From Maribacter orientalis (GTDB lineage: Bacteria; Bacteroidota; Bacteroidia; Flavobacteriales; Flavobacteriaceae), in contig NZ_FNZN01000002.1 in NCBI RefSeq assembly GCF_900109345.1, positions 1 through 64,000 of the forward strand: a DNA stretch of 64,000 bases, given 5' to 3'. Shown in pieces: positions 17,524-63,881 of the stretch. Both the position numbers and the translations under genes were made by a program. Each line of letters begins with the position of its first letter. The stretch's first letter is position 1. A model generated the notes under the pieces. That model saw only the letters and a program-made list of their open reading frames with translations, had not been told where the DNA came from and did not search any database.

Positions 17524-18933
17524 ATGAAAAAGTCAATATTAACAGCTTCACTGATAGTAATATTTAGTTTCTCTTGTAAAAAAGAGCTCAAAAATACCGA
17601 GCCTAATATTGAAACTAAAACTACCCTAGAAAATACCGATGGACCGGTGGATGGCGCTGAACCTGAAATCGATATGGGCGATATTATGAATGTTGTGGGA
17701 GGGCTATTAAACCCGAGCACTGCCCCAGATTCTAACAGCAAAAGCCTGTTCACCCCAAGTGGTGCGCTCAATATAGCCTACCTAAAAAGTGAGGAGGGCA
17801 AGTCGCTTCGCAAGACTTTTGCCGACATCGCAGGGGTCTCCGAGGAGGAAGTGGACCTTTCCCTGACCTTGATGCCCGATGACAATATTGTGAGTGTAAA
17901 ACATGCCGAGGCCATTGAGAAAGATTTGAACAATCCCGAAGTGGAAGCATACATTAAAAGCGGGAAGGCTTCCAACAATTTTTTGGATTTGATCAAGGAA
18001 AGTAAGGAGAAGGCGATGGTGCGCACGGCAAGTTTTAAAAAAAGGGCCCAAAAAGCGAAAGAACAGTTTTATAAAGACAATCCTTCTTGGTTTGCTTTGG
18101 ATGAAACGACTGAAGACACCTTCATCGATTCACGGAAAGAAATGGTTTATTTGCCCTTGGGGAATTTATCCTTTGCAGATTCAGTTATAGTTTTTTCCCC
18201 CGGAGAACCATCGGGCCGCTCGCCCGAAAAAGGTTTAGGTCCTTCGCAAGGGGACGCAAGTCTCCAGACAGATTGCGCCTTATTAGGCCTAGGTGGATCG
18301 GTAATATACTTTTTTAAGGACAATGCGATTACAGATATTAACGGTCCAGATCTTTATGTATTTGAAATGGGACAAAATATAGAAGCAACCAATCTTGAAA
18401 TTTCCAAAGATGGTGTCAATTGGGTCGACCTAGGTAAGATCGAAGGTGGAACAGCTAGTTTAGATATTTCGAATTTTGCAAAAAAAGGTGAACGCTTTAA
18501 TTACATAAGGCTAACCGATCTAAAATCCGGTTTTGGCCCTCCCCCTGGAGCTGATATCGATGCTGTCGCCGCGATTGGAGGTGCCTTGCGCATGAACCTA
18601 GACAGTGCGGTACTCTTTGAAACTGGAAAACATGAACTCAAAGAGGAGGGTAAAATGGCCATCAAGATCCTTGCCGAACAAATGAAAAATTTGCAAAAGG
18701 GCGCCATTACCGTCGAAGGCCATACCGATGATATGGGCAGTGACACCACCAATAAAACCTTATCGCAAAAGCGGGCTGCCAGTGTTGCCGCAGAACTTAA
18801 AAAGGCTATCAACAAGCCTGCTTTTAAATGGAAAGAAGTGGGTTATGGGGAATCCAAACCATTGGTAGAGAACAACTCTGATGAAAACAGGGCAAAGAAC
18901 AGAAGGGTAGAGATTTTGGTGACGCCTTATTGA
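17524..18933 (+). CDS. OmpA-family lipoprotein with discoidin-like middle domain
   Basis: 469 residues. Lipoprotein signal with Cys in FSFSCKKE (about 18). Residues about 205-355 look like a galactose-binding/discoidin-type cell-surface domain (VFSPGEPSG, LGLGGSVIYFF, GPDLYVFEMG, EISKDGVNWVDLG). The C-terminal OmpA domain (about 360-469) shows VEGHTDDMGS, LSQKRAASV and RRVEILV, the peptidoglycan-binding core. It should tether the outer membrane to the cell wall while holding another domain. The ATG follows the previous stop after a single base (TGATATG), so translational coupling is likely. Confidence 0.78.
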   Translation: MKKSILTASLIVIFSFSCKKELKNTEPNIETKTTLENTDGPVDGAEPEIDMGDIMNVVGGLLNPSTAPDSNSKSLFTPSGALNIAYLKSEEGKSLRKTFADIAGVSEEEVDLSLTLMPDDNIVSVKHAEAIEKDLNNPEVEAYIKSGKASNNFLDLIKESKEKAMVRTASFKKRAQKAKEQFYKDNPSWFALDETTEDTFIDSRKEMVYLPLGNLSFADSVIVFSPGEPSGRSPEKGLGPSQGDASLQTDCALLGLGGSVIYFFKDNAITDINGPDLYVFEMGQNIEATNLEISKDGVNWVDLGKIEGGTASLDISNFAKKGERFNYIRLTDLKSGFGPPPGADIDAVAAIGGALRMNLDSAVLFETGKHELKEEGKMAIKILAEQMKNLQKGAITVEGHTDDMGSDTTNKTLSQKRAASVAAELKKAINKPAFKWKEVGYGESKPLVENNSDENRAKNRRVEILVTPY

Positions 18934-52716: not shown

Positions 52717-52790
<74 letters not shown>

Positions 52791-52843: not shown

Positions 52844-53488
52844 ATGCCTAGTTTTAACGAGTTACTTACCTTTGAATACGAAAGTGCATACGATTTGTCT
52901 GTAAAGAGAAGCTTTTCCATCCCTAAAATATATTCCGCGAATGGCGATTTGAAAAAACGCTGGTATATGTATTTTTCTTTCGCGACCCCAAAAACGAAAA
53001 ATTAGAACGGCAGACTCCGTTCTATGGAAACGCCAATAAATATAAGACCAAGGAAGATAGAATGTCCGTACTGGTTACCTATAGAAATGTTTTATTAAGA
53101 CTTCTAAAACAAGGTTGTAATCCTTATTCCGATAACTTAGAGTTACACCAAAGTTTACTCACTAAAAACAATATAGCTGTTACTTCAGTTTCGCCCGATA
53201 AGGATTACAAAAAATCCGACCCTACACCGGATAAAACAATAATGACCGTTCAAGAAGGGTTTGATTTTGAAATAAAGCTCAAAGAAAAGATAGTAAACCA
53301 AACAACCAAAAGGGGGTTATGAAAATAAACTAAAGATTTTTTTAGAGTGGCTTTCAGTTAATCACCCAGAAATAAAGTTCATCTCCGAACTTAAAAAGAA
53401 ACTTATTGTAGAATTCTTAAATGATGTTTTGAACAGGAATAGTGCACGAACAAGAAATAATTACAAAACCGACTTAAGACGTGTATAA
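52844..53488 (+). pseudogene. Tyrosine-type site-specific integrase, N-terminal remnant
   Basis: ATG at 52844 (MPSFNELLTFEYESAYDLSV). A one-base loss near 52981 shifts the frame (YMYFSF then RDPKNEKLERQTPFYG). An extra G in the run at about 53315 shifts it again (TTKRG then YENKLKIFLEW). The last frame carries the SAM-like core-binding domain (ARTRNNYKTDLRRV) and ends at TAA (53486-53488). That TAA belongs to the palindromic repeat starting at 53481. The whole catalytic domain with R..HxxR..Y is gone. Intact relatives are about 400 residues. It is a fossil of an integrase that probably inserted at the tRNA-fMet gene. Confidence 0.82.
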
Positions 53489-53648
53489 AACATAGCTAAT
53501 AATTCATAAACTCTAAGATTCGTGAGTATTTGTAAAGTCCGCCAAATTTTTAATTTCGCTATATTTAGAAAAGAAAATTAAACATAAAAATTAGGATTGT
53601 GCTATATCTGAAAAGTTATCGCTTATTTTCATGTACGAGACGTTGTGC
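53481..53648 (+). repeat. Cassette-boundary palindromic repeat, copy A
   Basis: Left arm starts GTGTATAAAACATAGC and the right end reads GCTTATTTTCATGTAC then GACGTTGTGC, so the ends pair imperfectly. It contains the inner GCCAAATTTTTAATTTCGC hairpin. The left 71 bp match copy D with a single difference. The right half is about 11 bp shorter than in D. It lies directly after the integrase remnant and 17 bp before the next gene. Confidence 0.82.
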
Positions 53649-53665
53649 TTTATGATGAATAACCA

Positions 53666-54430
53666 ATGATAAAATTATTTAGAACAATTAGACAAAACTT
53701 GCTTTCAGAAGGAAAAACTGGTAAGTATCTCAAATATGCCATTGGCGAAATTATACTGGTGGTCATTGGTATTTTAATTGCGCTACAAATTAACGATTGG
53801 AATGAAAACAGGATTAACCGAAAACAAGAACATCAAATACTGTTGCAACTGAAAAGTGAATACACCGAGAACTTAAACGAACTTGACAATAAAATTACGA
53901 TGCGAAATAACACGATTGACGCTTCGTATAGAATATTTTCGGTTAAAGAAGGACTGAATGAAAACGTTCCTGTTGACAGTATTGCATTAGATTTAATAAC
54001 TATAAATAGCACACCAACTTTTGATCCCGTTACTGGAACAACAAATGAAGTATTATCATCGGGTAAATTGTATCTATTAACCAATGATATGCTCAAAACC
54101 TTGCTGACCAATTGGTCCGGACAAGTAAATAGGCTTACGGAATACGAGCAAGATTTACGCAACTATAGCATTAATCATTTTTATCCGTACCTAACAAAAA
54201 ACCATAACATTAAATTATTGTTTAACGGATTGTGGTGGATAGATAAATTCAATTTCAAAAATAAAGACAAACGTATTGCGGTCACTAAAATAATTGAAGA
54301 TGATGACATTGACGATTATATTTTGACCATAACGGAACAATGTGGCATTACTAATAATGAGGCAGTACATGTTAGAAACAATATAGAATCCATTTTGCAA
54401 TTGATAAACGCTGACCTTGATAAAAAATAA
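53666..54430 (+). CDS. DUF6090 membrane protein (cassette gene 1)
   Basis: 254 residues. N-terminal cytoplasmic motif FRTIRQNLLSEGKTGKYLKYAIGEIILVVIGILIALQINDWNE (residues 5-47 region) is the hallmark of DUF6090: a Lys/Arg-rich start and one membrane helix (about 27-41). The rest is a helical periplasmic domain of unknown function. It begins 17 bp after repeat A and ends 7 bp before repeat B, with no visible promoter of its own, like a gene cassette. Confidence 0.85.
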   Translation: MIKLFRTIRQNLLSEGKTGKYLKYAIGEIILVVIGILIALQINDWNENRINRKQEHQILLQLKSEYTENLNELDNKITMRNNTIDASYRIFSVKEGLNENVPVDSIALDLITINSTPTFDPVTGTTNEVLSSGKLYLLTNDMLKTLLTNWSGQVNRLTEYEQDLRNYSINHFYPYLTKNHNIKLLFNGLWWIDKFNFKNKDKRIAVTKIIEDDDIDDYILTITEQCGITNNEAVHVRNNIESILQLINADLDKK

Positions 54431-54437
54431 CGAAAGT

Positions 54438-54642
54438 ACAACACCATGTATAAAACATAGCTAGTAGGTGCTAAATTAAAAGGTTTGTGTTTATTTGCGA
54501 AGACCGCCAGATTCTTAAATTTGGCTTTTAAAATTGATAAAGTAAAAACAAAATATAATCCCGAAGCGTCGGGACGGCTATGTGTTAATCCAAAAAATTA
54601 GTGCCTTTTTACACGCTACGTTTTATGCTCAAACCGTTATAC
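54438..54642 (+). repeat. Cassette-boundary palindromic repeat, copy B
   Basis: Left end ACAACACCATGTATAAAACATAGC is mirrored by right end GCTACGTTTTATGC, then CAAACCGTTATAC: (C/T)AAC, about 7 bp, TATAAAACATAGC pairs with GCTACGTTTTATG, about 7 bp, GTTA. The inner hairpin is GCCAGATTCTTAAATTTGGC. Also contains the extra hairpin CCCGAAGCGTCGGG (54561-54574). It starts 7 bp after the DUF6090 stop and ends 13 bp before the next ATG. Confidence 0.88.
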
Positions 54643-54655
54643 TCAATTGAAAAAA

Positions 54656-56182
54656 ATGAAAATGAAAATATTCTTCTTTACCATAATTGGGTTATTGTTC
54701 TCTTCCAATTCAATCTCCCAACAAATACAATTAGATTCACTTGATTTACAAATTCATAAACTCATAAATGACTTTGATATACCCGGTCTTTCTATTGGTA
54801 TTGTTCGGAATGATTCTATAATATTTTCCAAAGGTTATGGAAACTTGGAAATTCATAAAGAAAGAAAAGTTGATGAAAATACAATTTTTGGAATCGGCTC
54901 AATCTCCAAGTCATTTACTGCTTTAACATTGGGAATATTAGTAGATGAAGAAAAAATAGATTGGGATGATAAAGTTAAAGCATATCTACCTTACTTTGAA
55001 TTGTACGCTCCCTATGTAACGGATAATTTTACAATTAGAGATTTACTCACCCATAGAAGTGGTCTTAAAGATGTTAGTGGAGGAACACTATGGTACCACT
55101 CGGATTATTCAAGAGAAGAAATAATAAAGCGTCTTAAATATTTGGAACCAGCATCGGGCTTTCGAGAAAAACCAGCATACCAAAATGTGATGTATGTAGT
55201 TGCTTCTGAAATAGTAGAAAAAGTTTCTGGAATGTCGTGGGATGATTTCCTTAAAACAAAGGTGTTTGATAAACTGAAAATGAATAATAGCACACCTCTT
55301 TCAACTGAAAGAGAATCTAATAGAAACCTAGCCCAACCACATATTTGGAATGAAGATTATGAAAAAGTTGCAATAAAACAGGAAAAGGGAGATAATCTTG
55401 CTCCAGGTGGCTTTATATACTCTTCGTCAAACGAAATGTCAAATTATATGAGACTCTTGCTGAATAATGGAACATTTGATAATGATACTATTGTTAGTCC
55501 GCAAATAATTAATGAAATTTTCAAACCTCAAATTATATATCCTATAGGTGGTGCTCCATTTTACAATGAATTCACATCTTACGGATTTGGTTGGTGGCTA
55601 ACCCCAAAAAAAGGACATAAGATAATTGAACATAGTGGAGGTATTGATGGTATGTCTGCTAATCTTGTTATGATAAAAGATATGAACCTAGGGTTTGTAA
55701 TACTTACCAACGAAGCGGAAGAGCCCGCAACTTTTTTATTGACAGCTAAAATATTGGAAGAGCTATTTGATGATGAGTCGTTTGATATATATTCCAGAGT
55801 AATGGATTATAGAAACCAGAATTTAAAAAAGAAAAAAGAATCACCTGTTCAGATTTTTAAAACCCCTAAAACAAAACCTTCATTAAAAATTCAAAATTAC
55901 GCTGGAAAATACATCGACAAAATGTATGGAGACATTTTAATAAATTATACCGAGAGTGGTGGATTAGAAATTTCATTTTCTCATTCACAAGTATTTAAAG
56001 GAAAATTAGAACATTGGCATTTTGATACGTTTAAAATAGATTGGAATGACATACGAGTTCCTGATGGCTTTTTAACTTTCAACTTTAATTCAAAAAGAGA
56101 AATATTAGGGTTCTCCGTCGATCAAGAAAATCTACTTGATGTTGATTTCGGAGAACTGAACATTCTGAAAAATAAAAACTGA
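54656..56182 (+). CDS. Serine hydrolase (class C beta-lactamase/DD-peptidase fold) (cassette gene 2)
   Basis: 508 residues from the ATG at 54656; the in-frame TTG at 54647 is less likely. Signal peptide about 1-23 (SNSISQQ). Catalytic signature residues: SISKS (SxxK, about 85), YQNV (YxN, about 181), and HSGG (HxG, about 330). The C-terminal beta-domain (about 415-508) is a DUF3471-like extension. Possibly an esterase or peptidase rather than a beta-lactamase. It lies between repeats B and C, ends 2 bp before C, and carries no flanking promoter. Confidence 0.88.
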   Translation: MKMKIFFFTIIGLLFSSNSISQQIQLDSLDLQIHKLINDFDIPGLSIGIVRNDSIIFSKGYGNLEIHKERKVDENTIFGIGSISKSFTALTLGILVDEEKIDWDDKVKAYLPYFELYAPYVTDNFTIRDLLTHRSGLKDVSGGTLWYHSDYSREEIIKRLKYLEPASGFREKPAYQNVMYVVASEIVEKVSGMSWDDFLKTKVFDKLKMNNSTPLSTERESNRNLAQPHIWNEDYEKVAIKQEKGDNLAPGGFIYSSSNEMSNYMRLLLNNGTFDNDTIVSPQIINEIFKPQIIYPIGGAPFYNEFTSYGFGWWLTPKKGHKIIEHSGGIDGMSANLVMIKDMNLGFVILTNEAEEPATFLLTAKILEELFDDESFDIYSRVMDYRNQNLKKKKESPVQIFKTPKTKPSLKIQNYAGKYIDKMYGDILINYTESGGLEISFSHSQVFKGKLEHWHFDTFKIDWNDIRVPDGFLTFNFNSKREILGFSVDQENLLDVDFGELNILKNKN

Positions 56183-56184
56183 GT

Positions 56185-56378
56185 TTAACCATGCTTATAT
56201 CAAATAGGACATAAAGTAATAAATTTAGAGGCTTGTCTATATTTGCTAATCCTGCCAAATCTTTTGGATTTGGCTTTTAAATTGAAAAAGATAAAAACGA
56301 AACAAAAAGCTTTGGCTACGAGCGTAGACGAAAATGAAAGGTTTCCTTGCCTGCCCTACTCGCCATAGGCACAATTAG
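56185..56378 (+). repeat. Cassette-boundary palindromic repeat, copy C (diverged)
   Basis: Ends TTAACCATGCTTATATC...TAGG (56185-56208) and CCTACTCGCCATAGGCACAATTAG (56355-56378) are reverse-complement partners in which most differences are transitions, which keep G-T pairing. The inner hairpin is GCCAAATC-TTTTG-GATTTGGC, with a compensating change relative to the other copies. It starts 2 bp after the serine hydrolase stop and ends 13 bp before the permease ATG. Confidence 0.7.
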
Positions 56379-56391
56379 CCCAAAAAACTGA

Positions 56392-57687
56392 ATGGAGGAT
56401 AATAAAGAAAATTTAAAAAGAGTAGTTGGAATTTTTGGATTCAGTACTAACATCATTAATATGGTGGTTGGTTCCGGAATATTCGTACTACCAGCAATTG
56501 TTGCTGCTGGACTTGGCACTTCGAGCATTTTTGCATATTTACTATGTGGATTTCTTGTGGCACTTGTTATGCTTTGTTTCGCAGAAGCTGGAAGTAGAGT
56601 AACAGATTCTGGAGGTGCTTATATCTACATTAAAACAGCTTTTGGTCCATATTTTGGTTTTCTCACTTCTATACTTTTTGTTTTGGCAACTATTTCGGCT
56701 GATGCTGCTGTAGCCAATGCTATCGTCGATATAATTGGCTCTATAATTCCAGAATTCAAAATAACATATATCAAAATACTTATATTCCTTATCCTTTTTG
56801 CAGGTTTTGGGTTTGTCAATATAAAGGGAGTTAAAAACGGAGTTAAGGTTGTTAAATTCGTAACTGTTGCAAAATTAATTCCATTACTGTTGCTAGTTTT
56901 ATTTTCTTGGGGCGATGTCTCCCTTGATAACCTTTCAATCGGAACTGTATCACCTTTCAATGATATAGCAAAAATGTCTTTAATTCTATTTTTCGCATTT
57001 CAAGGAGCTGAATCTGGATTTTCTATTAGTGGCGAGGTCAAAAACCCCAAAAGGAATATTCCTAAAGGAATTTTCTTAAGTATTATTATCATACTAATTA
57101 TTTATATCCTTATACAAGTTGTATCACAAGGAGTACTTGGGGATTCATTGGTTACTTTTAAGGAAAATCCTTTAGGTGCTGTTGCAAATCAAATCTTTGG
57201 GCCTATTGGATTCACCGCAATGACATTAGCAGCAGCTGTTTCTATGCTAGGCTACTTAAGTAGTTCAATATTGAGTATGCCAAGGATACTGTTTCGTGCA
57301 TCAAAAGACAATGTTCTACCTATTAAATCTCTGACTAAAATTCATTCAAAATTTAGCACACCATACATCTCTATAATTTCTTATGCATCTGCTGGATTCT
57401 TATTTGCCTCCATTGGTGGTTTTGAACAGTTAGCAATTATTTCGAGCGCGACTGTTTTATTAATCTATCTAGGAGTGTCATTGTCTGTAGTTAAATTGAG
57501 AAAACTAAATATTGGCTCTGGAAATGAATTTAGAATTCCAGGTGGTTATTTAATTCCAGTTTTGTCCAGTTTGACTATTCTTTATTTATTATCTAACCTT
57601 GCTCGAAATGAATTTATAATTATTTTAATAGCTATAATTATTTTGACCTTTGTTTATTTTTTAAAAACTAAACCGAATAAAAAATAA
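56392..57687 (+). CDS. APC-family amino acid permease (cassette gene 3)
   Basis: 431 residues, about 12 membrane helices. The N-terminal motif GFSTNIINMVVGSGIFVLPAIV (about 16-37) with the substrate-binding GSGIF turn, and a SGGAYIYIKTAFGP segment, are typical of amino acid-polyamine-organocation permeases. The substrate is unknown. The gene sits between repeats C and D (13 bp after C, 2 bp before D), which makes it the third single-gene cassette. Confidence 0.88.
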   Translation: MEDNKENLKRVVGIFGFSTNIINMVVGSGIFVLPAIVAAGLGTSSIFAYLLCGFLVALVMLCFAEAGSRVTDSGGAYIYIKTAFGPYFGFLTSILFVLATISADAAVANAIVDIIGSIIPEFKITYIKILIFLILFAGFGFVNIKGVKNGVKVVKFVTVAKLIPLLLLVLFSWGDVSLDNLSIGTVSPFNDIAKMSLILFFAFQGAESGFSISGEVKNPKRNIPKGIFLSIIIILIIYILIQVVSQGVLGDSLVTFKENPLGAVANQIFGPIGFTAMTLAAAVSMLGYLSSSILSMPRILFRASKDNVLPIKSLTKIHSKFSTPYISIISYASAGFLFASIGGFEQLAIISSATVLLIYLGVSLSVVKLRKLNIGSGNEFRIPGGYLIPVLSSLTILYLLSNLARNEFIIILIAIIILTFVYFLKTKPNKK

Positions 57688-57689
57688 CT

Positions 57690-57895
57690 GTGCCTAACAA
57701 AGAACTGAGGTATAAAACATAGCTAATAATTCATAAACTCTAAGATTCGTGAGTATTTGTAAAGTCTGCCAAATTTTTAAATTTAGCTTTTAAATAAAAA
57801 TGTGAAAACAAAGCATAAAAATTCGGCTCTGTGTTAATCCGAAAAGTTAGCGTCTTTTTACACGCTAAGTTTCATACACAATACCGTTATATGCA
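57690..57895 (+). repeat. Cassette-boundary palindromic repeat, copy D
   Basis: Left end GTGCCTAACAAAGAACTGAG then GTATAAAACATAGC; right end GCTAAGTTTCATACAC then ACCGTTATATGC. The left GCCTAAC resembles an integron R'' box (RYYYAAC); the right GTTATAT only partly resembles the R' box (GTTRRRY). 71 bp from 57710 match copy A with one mismatch. Starts 2 bp after the permease stop. Confidence 0.88.
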
Positions 57896-58021
57896 AGCCA
57901 AACAGAAATCTCCGAATTCAATAACTTAACGCAACAAATCAGAATTTTAGATTTGTTGTATGAACACAAAGGACTTTCACTTAAAGAGCATGTCATTATC
58001 CAGACACTTTTGGAAGACTAA
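57893..58021 (+). pseudogene. Gene fragment after repeat D
   Basis: A coding-like frame (ASQTEISEFNNLTQQIRI..., ending IIQTLLED then TAA at 58019-58021) of about 42 codons without a start codon. The ATG in repeat D's end (57891) is in another frame and stops after 12 codons. Looks like the 3' remnant of a former cassette gene whose body was deleted. Family not recognised. Confidence 0.4.
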
Positions 58022-58079
58022 CCATATTAAGCATACCTTTAATAATCAGATACTATTAATTTTTAAAAAATAAAATCTT

Positions 58080-58505
58080 ATGAATAAAAATGGCGCAATA
58101 GTATTTATTGAAGACGACATTGACGACCAAGAACTAGTGGCGGAGGTATTTGAAGAACTTGATTATAAAAATGAATTACTTTTTTTTGGAGATGGTGAAT
58201 TAGCATTAGAGCATTTAATAAGCAATCGAATAGAACCCTTCATTGTTTTTTCTGACATTAATATGCCAAAACTCAACGGCTTGGAACTAAGAGAAAAAAT
58301 TCACAACAATGAGGATTTAAGATTAAAGTGCACACCGTATTTGTTTTTTTCTACAAGTTCTGAACAGCAGCATGTAATTGATGCATATTCAAAATCAATC
58401 CAAGGTTTTTTTGTTAAACCCAATAGTTATTCTGACTTAAAAAACACTTTAAAAATTATAATTGATTATTGGAAAGAATGTGTTTCTCCAGATTATGTAA
58501 AGTAG
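58080..58505 (+). CDS. Single-domain response regulator
   Basis: 141 residues consisting of a receiver domain only. Acidic pocket at EDDIDD (about 11-16), phospho-acceptor Asp in FSDINMPK (about 60), Thr/Ser in FFSTSS (about 95), Lys in FVKPNS (about 115). This is the Rcp1-like group that pairs with a bacteriophytochrome or another kinase. No kinase is in the vicinity. It is 59 bp after a gene fragment and 289 bp before repeat E. Confidence 0.88.
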   Translation: MNKNGAIVFIEDDIDDQELVAEVFEELDYKNELLFFGDGELALEHLISNRIEPFIVFSDINMPKLNGLELREKIHNNEDLRLKCTPYLFFSTSSEQQHVIDAYSKSIQGFFVKPNSYSDLKNTLKIIIDYWKECVSPDYVK

Positions 58506-58793
58506 TCAGAATCGAAAATCCAAAGGAATTACGACTGAAATGTAGTTGCGGAATTGAAACCGAAATAAAAAACACAGCGAAATTTTTTGCTGAATATCTC
58601 ATCCGAAGTCCCTTCAACAAATCGAAAATTTAGCTTTCACCAAGTTTCGGCTGAATAACAGGAATGACAAACATTACGGCTGAACTGTGCGCTGAAAGGA
58701 TTTGAAAAGGTCAGTTCATTATATCTAACATTGTGAAAACCAAAAAAGTTTAGGTTGAAAAAAATGGAATTTACTGAGAATCAAACTTAAGAA
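58506..58793 (+). other. Non-coding stretch with probable gene remnants
   Basis: No ORF of note. The sequence contains coding-like pieces in several frames (for example around 58520-58700), so it may hold a decayed cassette gene between the response regulator and repeat E. I see no motif that identifies it. Confidence 0.3.
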
Positions 58794-58940
58794 GAACTGA
58801 GGCATTTAAGATAGTTAATATAGGCTTCCCAAGAGGTCTGTATATATTGGAAAAGTCTCCAAATTGAAAAGGTAAAACAAAAATTCAGCTCTGTTTTAAT
58901 TCGAAAAGTTAGTGCCTTTTTACATACTACTTATAATATT
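58794..58940 (+). repeat. Cassette-boundary palindromic repeat, copy E (degenerate)
   Basis: Shares GAACTGAGG with the left end of D, then AAAAGTCTCCAAATT, CAGCTCTGTTTTAAT, CGAAAAGTTAGTGCC and TTTTTACATACTAC, all aligned with the other copies. The inner GCCAAA/TTTGGC hairpin is lost and the copy is about 50 bp shorter. Probably a dying copy marking the right end of the array. Confidence 0.65.
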
Positions 58941-59399
58941 GAAAACATATGTGTGGTAGATGATAGTTATCATTGATTACCTCTTACAACATTAATATAA
59001 TTATCTATTAATTTTTCTTTAGGAACCCCTTACCAAATGCACTCAGTGGGTTTTCTATTCTAAACCATTATTTTGACCAGAGCGATATTTAATATCCGCT
59101 TTTTTCTTTATTTTAAGTTTTTACTTTATAACTATCACTTTATACTTCTGGGCGTTCAACCATAAACGTAATGCAAATAGCAGCCAAATGGCTGCTATTT
59201 ATAGTTAAAAAAGAAAAAAGGCACTAAATAGTGTATATGTAACCTTAGTCTTAATAGAAATCGACAAAATTACAAGCCTACCACATACATAAAAATATGG
59301 CTTCTACTGTTTCCCAAAAAAAACTTCCCTTAAAGAATTCTAAGAAATGGATTTGGGAACCTACCCCTGACTTTTACTAGTTTTGATAACCTAATATTC
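58941..59399. other. Gene-free stretch with one strong hairpin
   Basis: No gene seen. At 59175-59200 AAATAGCAGCCA and TGGCTGCTATTT form a perfect 12-bp stem, probably a transcription terminator at the right end of the cassette region or for the minus-strand gene at 59400. The rest is AT-rich and featureless. Confidence 0.5.
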
Positions 59400-61541: not shown

Positions 61542-61587
61542 AACATTATATCTAAAATCAATCTTGATTTTAGATATAATGTTTTTA
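61542..61587 (+). terminator. Intrinsic terminator of the AraC gene
   Basis: AACATTATATCTAAAATCA (61542-61560) and TGATTTTAGATATAATGTT (61565-61583): a perfect 19-bp stem with a 4-nt loop and T-run. Confidence 0.9.
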
Positions 61588-63732: not shown

Positions 63733-63747
63733 CTTCTTTATATATAT

Positions 63748-63767
63748 TTGTTTAATCGATTAACCAA
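63748..63767. promoter_or_regulatory. LacI operator O1
   Basis: TTGTTTAATCGATTAACCAA, a near-palindrome centred on TTAATCGATTAA. It is the exact reverse complement of the second site at 63827-63846. It covers the -7 region and start site of the repressor gene's own promoter. Confidence 0.8.
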
Positions 63768-63794
63768 AAGTAAGGCTTTAATTCCCGTAATCAA
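63765..63794 (-). promoter_or_regulatory. Promoter of the lacI-type gene
   Basis: On the minus strand TTG (63792-63794), 19-bp spacer, TACTTTTG (63765-63772). The operator overlaps the -7 element by 3 bp and spans the predicted start. Confidence 0.72.
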
Positions 63795-63826
63795 AAAATG
63801 TCTTTTTTGGTTATTTTTTATGATAA

Positions 63827-63846
63827 TTGGTTAATCGATTAAACAA
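63827..63846. promoter_or_regulatory. LacI operator O2
   Basis: TTGGTTAATCGATTAAACAA, mirror image of O1, 79 bp centre to centre. It lies 36-55 bp upstream of the kinase ATG. The pair could support looping. Confidence 0.8.
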
Positions 63847-63881
63847 CAATATTTTATTACATTTCAAACTTAATAGTCAAC

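Follow-up and report, generated by a model that had tools for sequence, protein, structure and literature searches.

The window analysed here, namely the first 64,000 bases of one contig (C15:1-64000) of the Maribacter orientalis genome (4.16 Mb, 26 contigs), contains next to a tRNA-Met gene a row of single genes separated by palindromic sites which resemble the attC sites of integrons. On the strength of sequence comparisons, we are confident that these genes and attC-like sites represent what is likely the decayed remnant of an integron-like island, with cassettes whose predicted mover is a tyrosine recombinase devoid of I2, a helix-bearing insertion of the integron integrase IntI. In the complete versions of the system, a recombinase gene is followed by a palindromic attI-like site just past its stop codon and by cassettes with inverted-repeat ends around G|TT. 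By its architecture and by the footprint of its cassettes the system would be an integron, and not an IntI integron, since a test for the I2 insertion found it lacking; it appears to represent an overlooked, I2-less class. An initial annotation of the window had proposed a flavobacterial cassette-mobilising system with its recombinase encoded elsewhere. This proposal is borne out by the presence of one recombinase family directly upstream of the same sites in this and in related genomes, with the amendment that the sites are attC-like down to their GTT and AAC ends and that what the window contains is likely not a working system but the decayed remnant of an integron island.

Complete units are found in the same genome on contigs C8 and C11, where a tyrosine recombinase of 375-380 amino acids (the two copies being 76% identical to each other) is followed by a palindrome, by G|TT and by successive gene-site units, while contigs C12, C13 and C19 (5.6, 5.6 and 7.2 kb) carry several sites each. 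Sites were searched with a covariance model, R1, built from 46 sites of this and related genomes, which gave 39 matches in the stretches of the M. orientalis genome examined, one of them being a reverse-strand shadow. Scanning genome contigs for the recombinase yielded 53 loci; after the four most distant had been set aside as remote, R1 produced 103 matches in the other 49, four of them reverse-strand shadows of stronger ones. Among the other 99, as many as 98 lay downstream of the recombinase and on its strand (187 kb), and only one upstream (442 kb). In fact, a site was present in 27 of the 29 loci having at least 1 kb downstream of the recombinase. Moreover, 16 of the 49 contigs end inside the recombinase gene or at most 300 nt past it, contig ends lying in GTT itself (L075), one base later (L055) or a few bases before it (L063), and C11 ends within the GTT of its last site. 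We infer that such breaks at GTT would be expected if several cassettes followed one crossover point.

The two ends of a cassette match as inverted repeats. Among 66 strong sites, R' begins with GTT in 63 and R'' finishes with AAC in 65. For 45 pairs of neighbouring sites less than 3.5 kb apart, the seven bases after GTT were compared with the seven before the AAC of the next site, and a mean of 5.64 of 7 agreed, versus 2.63 after shuffling, the total being reached by none of 10,000 shuffles; 35 of the 45 pairs agreed at 6 or 7 of the variable bases, the set including near-copy cassettes (L081) and the pairs being not fully independent. The two ends of one and the same site agree in 2.89 of 7 only. 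Where 5 or more of the 7 agree (36 pairs), agreement is at least 94% over nine bases, 69% at the tenth and 0% at the eleventh, and 83-92% over the next three. These matching ends would be the footprint expected of past circular cassettes joined at G|TT.

In the 64-kb window, R1 returned exactly five matches at the model thresholds, all on the plus strand and at the very places where five same-orientation repeat copies (A to E) had initially been described, with E-values, within the 301 kb searched, from 2.8e-30 (B) down to 2.9e-6 (E); B and D belonged to the training set of the model, A, C and E did not. All five copies are linked by shared direct repeats. The array and its left flank are laid out as follows.

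52717-52790, plus strand: tRNA-Met (CAT), the island insertion site in sister genomes (ARAGORN, Rfam).
52844-53480, plus strand: broken pieces, reaching as far as site A, of the 439-aa tyrosine integrase that belongs to the island itself.
53481-53651, plus strand: attC-like site A (R1 match 53489-53651, 64 bits); R'' (left end) lost, right end GTTGTGC with its G at 53642.
53666-54430, plus strand: cassette gene 1, DUF6090 protein (PF19578, 2.3e-9); cassette-end match (A-B) 6/7.
54433-54645, plus strand: attC-like site B (R1 match 54440-54638, 132.5 bits); R'' GTACAAC, R' GTTATAC.
54656-56182, plus strand: cassette gene 2, beta-lactamase-family serine hydrolase (PF00144) with DUF3471; cassette-end match (B-C) 6/7.
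56180-56381, plus strand: attC-like site C (R1 match 56187-56376, 128.8 bits); R'' GTTTAAC, right end decayed and without GTT.
56392-57687, plus strand: cassette gene 3, amino-acid permease (PF13520, 9.4e-44); cassette-end match (C-D) 1/7.
57689-57895, plus strand: attC-like site D (R1 match 57703-57887, 126.1 bits); R'' GCCTAAC, R' GTTATAT.
58080-58505, plus strand: response-regulator gene between D and E (PF00072, 4e-14), not a snug cassette.
58795-58949, plus strand: degenerate attC-like site E (R1 34.6 bits, E-value 2.9e-6).

Both AAC and GTT are thus kept in B and D, only R' in A and only R'' in C. This corrects the initial description of the ends as only partly attC-like with regard to B and D; A is without its left end, C without its right end, and E is degenerate. 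The ends of the gene 3 cassette agree at a single base because the right end of C has decayed. A recount of the gaps agreed with the distances given before, that is, 17, 13 and 13 bp from repeat to start codon and 7, 2 and 2 bp from stop codon to repeat, provided that the ATG at 54656 is taken as the start of the second gene; the first three genes are snug between repeats, and the fourth is not.

The history of the locus can be read from its sister loci. A complete island lies at the same tRNA-Met in L144 (genome G412) and in L151 (genome G397, with a single site match), in the order tRNA, 439-aa integrase, proteins of 245, 140 and 132 aa, integron recombinase and sites, and the same order is found at a second tRNA-Met on contig C8 of M. 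orientalis itself. Other tRNA-Met loci hold only the first part of the island without sites (L140) or a broken integrase and an array (L149), and 12 of 20 loci of the genus have neither integrase nor site. In the window, a tblastn search with the intact C8 copy recovered the integrase as three overlapping pieces of 54-65% identity, C15 being without a match in the recombinase search of the genome. No copy of the recombinase was thus found in the window, the two copies being located elsewhere in the genome. Since the island integrase is broken and the recombinase absent there, while complete islands exist in two sister genomes, the array at 53481-58949 is likely what remains of an integron-like island after decay and loss of its recombinase. 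Deletion would have deprived the island at this tRNA-Met of the integron recombinase and the attI-like site, together with part of its integrase and the left end of A, the simplest reading being one deletion from within the integrase gene into site A, which would have left a fixed array behind.

The four array genes of the window had no match at the 20 other tRNA-Met loci except for a 31% response-regulator match in L155. At a second locus, flanked by SDR, cupin and Mpl genes, three other Maribacter genomes carry a recombinase where C11 has one, and C11, L048 and L073 (1, 3 and 9 open reading frames compared) have no common cassette protein at E≤1e-8. These two comparisons establish that gene content turns over while the flanks stay. 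The comparison with sister strains that had been suggested at the outset has therefore given other genes, or no array, at the same tRNA-Met, and different cassettes at a second locus with conserved flanks; the constant gene order or random repeat orientation that would have spoken for another origin is not what is seen, the repeats being co-oriented and the gene content variable.

Just past the recombinase gene, a G|TT is located 44-47 nt beyond the stop codon. Among 15 loci with a strong site, the bases following this G|TT match the R'' of the first such site at 6-7 of 7 in 12; L048, L049 and L060, where they do not, each contain an earlier, weaker site. This attI-like G|TT is preceded by a palindrome whose arms vary between species yet stay paired in 93.8% of cells (31 loci), with a covariation of 0.559 against 0.130 when shuffled and at most 0.092 when slid. 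The profile of its half-site fits best at the stem box of the attC-like site in 20 of 46 sites, and only 2 shuffled profiles among 300 do equally well. The box stands 7 nt from GTT in each of the 29 attI-like sites where GTT can be read, and 8 nt from it in 39 of the 46 attC-like sites. Elsewhere on C15 (about 124-125 kb), a partial attC-like site (L025 8090-8213) is followed 1 kb beyond by an attI-like string ending in CAATTG|TT (L025 9284-9312), with no recombinase seen beside it by eye.

As regards the enzyme, the spacing between two motifs is 56 aa in all 37 members measured, versus 98 aa in all 10 IntI measured, and the insertion region comprises 23 residues versus 65 when set against IntI4, the IntI insertion of about 42 residues (with helix I2) being absent. 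In the tree, all 50 members of the recombinase family form a separate clade (support 99), as do the 13 IntI (support 100). Both the C8 and the C11 recombinases score below the cut-off of the IntI model TIGR02249, and no canonical IntI passes it in the M. orientalis genome. With the XerA model NF040815, the cut-off of which is 220 bits, C11 scores 223.9 and C8 219.9; compared with XerA-type recombinases (annotated in NCBIfam as 'site-specific tyrosine recombinase/integron integrase'), the present enzyme is extended at its N-terminus by about 100 residues and is linked to a cassette array. Structural comparison left an archaeal Xer and IntI4 nearly tied as best match. Directly upstream of the recombinase, most of its close relatives (68 of 89 loci) show a divergent small gene with paired cysteines, zinc-ribbon-like (e.g. 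L021 7482-7880, minus strand), which gave no significant Pfam match and may be a partner or regulator of the recombinase.

The attC-like sites are predicted to fold. Near the ends, the stem is paired in 95.0% of cells over 46 sites, with a covariation of 0.483 versus 0.133 shuffled and at most 0.061 slid. Two stem positions are A:C on the top strand, that is, T.G on the bottom strand, in 41 and 45 of the 46 sites, and a third A:C position, at the cassette end, in 27 of 35. When each cassette's own ends were set together, the bottom strand folded better in 29 of 35, with a mean of -34.3 kcal/mol versus -31.8 kcal/mol for the top strand (p = 8e-5; shuffled difference -0.4, standard deviation 1.7). 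The bottom strand is thus likely the one that folds. In the covarying stem, which is the part that this test covered, no conserved protruding base was found.

To assess distribution, 397 Flavobacteriaceae genomes were surveyed (R1 at E≤1e-5 with six candidates scored per genome; recombinase at E≤1e-60). Sites were found in 286 genomes and the recombinase in 200. Genomes with a close recombinase relative (best match E≤2.4e-113) had sites in 64 of 67 cases, versus 222 of the 330 others (p = 2e-7), and at the E≤1e-60 threshold sites occurred in 176 of 200, versus 110 of 197 genomes without a recombinase match (p = 6e-13). The search across the family and the check for a co-occurring recombinase, both proposed in the initial annotation, have consequently come out in its favour. 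As controls, R1 found nothing at 17 of the 20 tRNA-Met loci of the genus (one of only 695 bases), the three with matches carrying the recombinase or a fragment resembling it, nor in 12 canonical IntI loci (two of which cover one gene), nor in three plasmid loci with other recombinases. Outside the family, a Persicobacter plasmid (Cytophagales; L188 11986-13134) encodes a 43% relative of the recombinase with a weak site 5 kb downstream (18202-18323), and the system may extend to plasmids and to bacteria other than Flavobacteriaceae.

From these elements, a mechanism can be put forward in which a cassette would circularise by recombination of two neighbouring attC-like sites at G|TT, and the circle would be reinserted either at another attC or at the G|TT of the attI-like site. 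The site would act as a folded bottom-strand hairpin. Since the recombinase lacks I2 and the stem lacks a conserved protruding base, recognition would proceed through the stem box and the conserved T.G mismatches, perhaps with the extra N-terminal domain. In IntI systems, according to PMC7790495, recombination acts on the folded attC as a single strand; I2 docks the protruding bases of this strand, is necessary for cassette capture, confers single-strand recombination and is absent from other proteins. The recombined strand is the bottom one, as is also stated in the abstract of PMC2117344. In its most extended form, the proposal is that a second, I2-less kind of integron occurs across Flavobacteriaceae, whose folded single-stranded attC hairpins are read through an N-terminal domain of the XPB/UvsW/HARP distorted-DNA type and the T.G mismatches of the stem, the two together replacing the I2 helix and the protruding bases, that the attC stem box and the palindromic attI are variants of one half-site, and that structure-directed capture arose twice or before I2. 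This form is advanced tentatively, at a little less than an even chance.

Several observations weigh against the proposed system. Ten of the 45 neighbouring pairs fall below 6/7, a further site inside explaining five of them. In the window itself, the ends match in two of the three testable cassettes, and neither E nor the fourth gene conforms to the pattern. Two loci with at least 1 kb downstream of the recombinase (L043 and L047) have no site at the R1 threshold, fold strength is reversed in six of the 35 sites, and in the survey sites occur in 110 of 197 genomes without a recombinase match, while 24 of 200 with one have none. Finally, all the evidence is drawn from sequence, from which excision, circles and enzyme activity are predicted.

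Among the other explanations, the one that deserves most attention keeps the same system and assumes that the sites are recombined as double-stranded DNA in the manner of Xer, the hairpin being a by-product of inverted boxes. The absence of the very part tied to single-strand recombination in IntI (PMC7790495), the position of the recombinase outside IntI and the palindromic form of the attI-like site, which would suit binding by a double-strand recombinase, all speak for it. Nevertheless, the attC-like stem covaries over 46 sites, the bottom strand folds better in 29 of 35, and the A:C (T.G) mismatches are fixed while adjacent pairs covary, which duplex use would not need; this explanation is regarded as rather unlikely. 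A far smaller chance is given to an ordinary cluster of attC sites lacking integron-integrase (CALIN), with canonical IntI absent or lost: although the GTT/AAC ends and the cassette layout are those of integrons, and canonical IntI exists elsewhere in the GTDB phylum (105 of 395 genomes), none passes the TIGR02249 cut-off in this genome, nor in its family among the matches listed, a different recombinase heads the arrays, and R1 is silent in the canonical IntI loci.

It is equally improbable that host Xer moves the cassettes, with the adjacent recombinase as a passenger. Two shorter Xer-type tyrosine recombinases are indeed encoded on contigs C7 and C22, and sites occur in 110 of 197 genomes without a recombinase match at E≤1e-60, but the attI-like palindrome and G|TT stand at a near-fixed distance from the stop of the present recombinase across species and accept the end of the first cassette. 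Least credible of all is the alternative of miniature inverted-repeat transposable elements (MITE-like) inserted between genes, raised in the initial annotation; the imperfect palindromes, of 150-210 bp, in AT-rich spacers speak for it. Judged by orientation and end matching, no search for target-site duplications having been made, this idea has found no support, since 98 of 99 copies in the 49 loci lie downstream of the recombinase on its strand, and since a repeat end matches the far end of the adjacent gene unit and not its own other end (5.64 versus 2.89 of 7), which repeat transposition does not predict.

The predicted I2-less integron shares with IntI integrons a recombinase gene with an adjacent attI-like site, co-oriented one-gene cassettes, AAC...GTT site ends, a crossover placed by our reading at G|TT, inverted-repeat cassette ends and a likely bottom-strand hairpin. 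It differs from them in that the recombinase lacks I2, has an extra N-terminal domain, falls outside the IntI clade and is encoded by a gene which reads towards the cassettes, and in that the site stem has T.G mismatches and no conserved protruding base, while the attI-like site is palindromic. With its five sites and no recombinase gene found in the window, the array would count as a CALIN if its sites were accepted as attC; it differs in that nothing tested from IntI loci matches the sites, and in that the recombinase lost was likely an I2-less one, as present at the same tRNA-Met in L144 and L151. Tyrosine recombinases adjacent to insertion sequences on three plasmids of Alphaproteobacteria are 37-42% identical to the flavobacterial enzyme over the matched core; one adjoins an IS91-family transposase and one an unnamed transposase, and these enzymes cluster with IntI (support 87) rather than with the new family, no R1 site being found nearby.

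To recognise IntI, integron surveys rely on overlap with an IntI-specific domain profile (PMC9668308), and in the IntegronFinder 2.0 survey (PMC9024848) one complete integron is named for Bacteroidetes, that of Salinibacter. The insertion is described as incompletely conserved in an integron-like subgroup, yet essential for integron function, in PMC8138268; recombinases without it had therefore been seen before, and the literature search found no link between I2-less recombinases and cassette arrays. If the present interpretation is true, a large group of marine bacteria harbours an abundant class of integrons that has escaped notice, the term abundant being based on the 67 of 397 family genomes with a close recombinase relative and the 286 with sites. 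In that case, the natural I2-less system would also allow a direct test of how integrons came to use folded single strands, and a large pool of cassette genes as yet unread would become accessible.

Regarding that pool, the longest open reading frame is sense-oriented in 32 of 35 cassettes, with a median coding fraction of 0.93. Two related pairs were found among 29 cassette proteins compared, and 33 examined gave single matches to a ParE-type toxin, Gp49, Cass2 and DUF6090, two of the 33 matching candidate defence families. DUF6090-type proteins recur, the product of gene 1 in the window being 41% and 35% identical to relatives in the arrays of C13 (L193) and C10 (L192), respectively. Tandem, near-identical cassettes of about 223 bp without a long open reading frame lie at L081 12321-13325. 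The C8 and C12 arrays (L021 11466-11816 and L023 1-97) run, as seen by eye, into the same sequence, at which both contigs end and which is likely one insertion element. Outside the array, the window also holds a perfect 20-bp inverted repeat with a 2-bp loop (61542-61583), terminator-like, just past an AraC-type gene, and two 26-bp arms, 92% complementary and each with TTAATCGATTAA (63742-63852), which lie upstream of a LacI-type gene and are operator-like.

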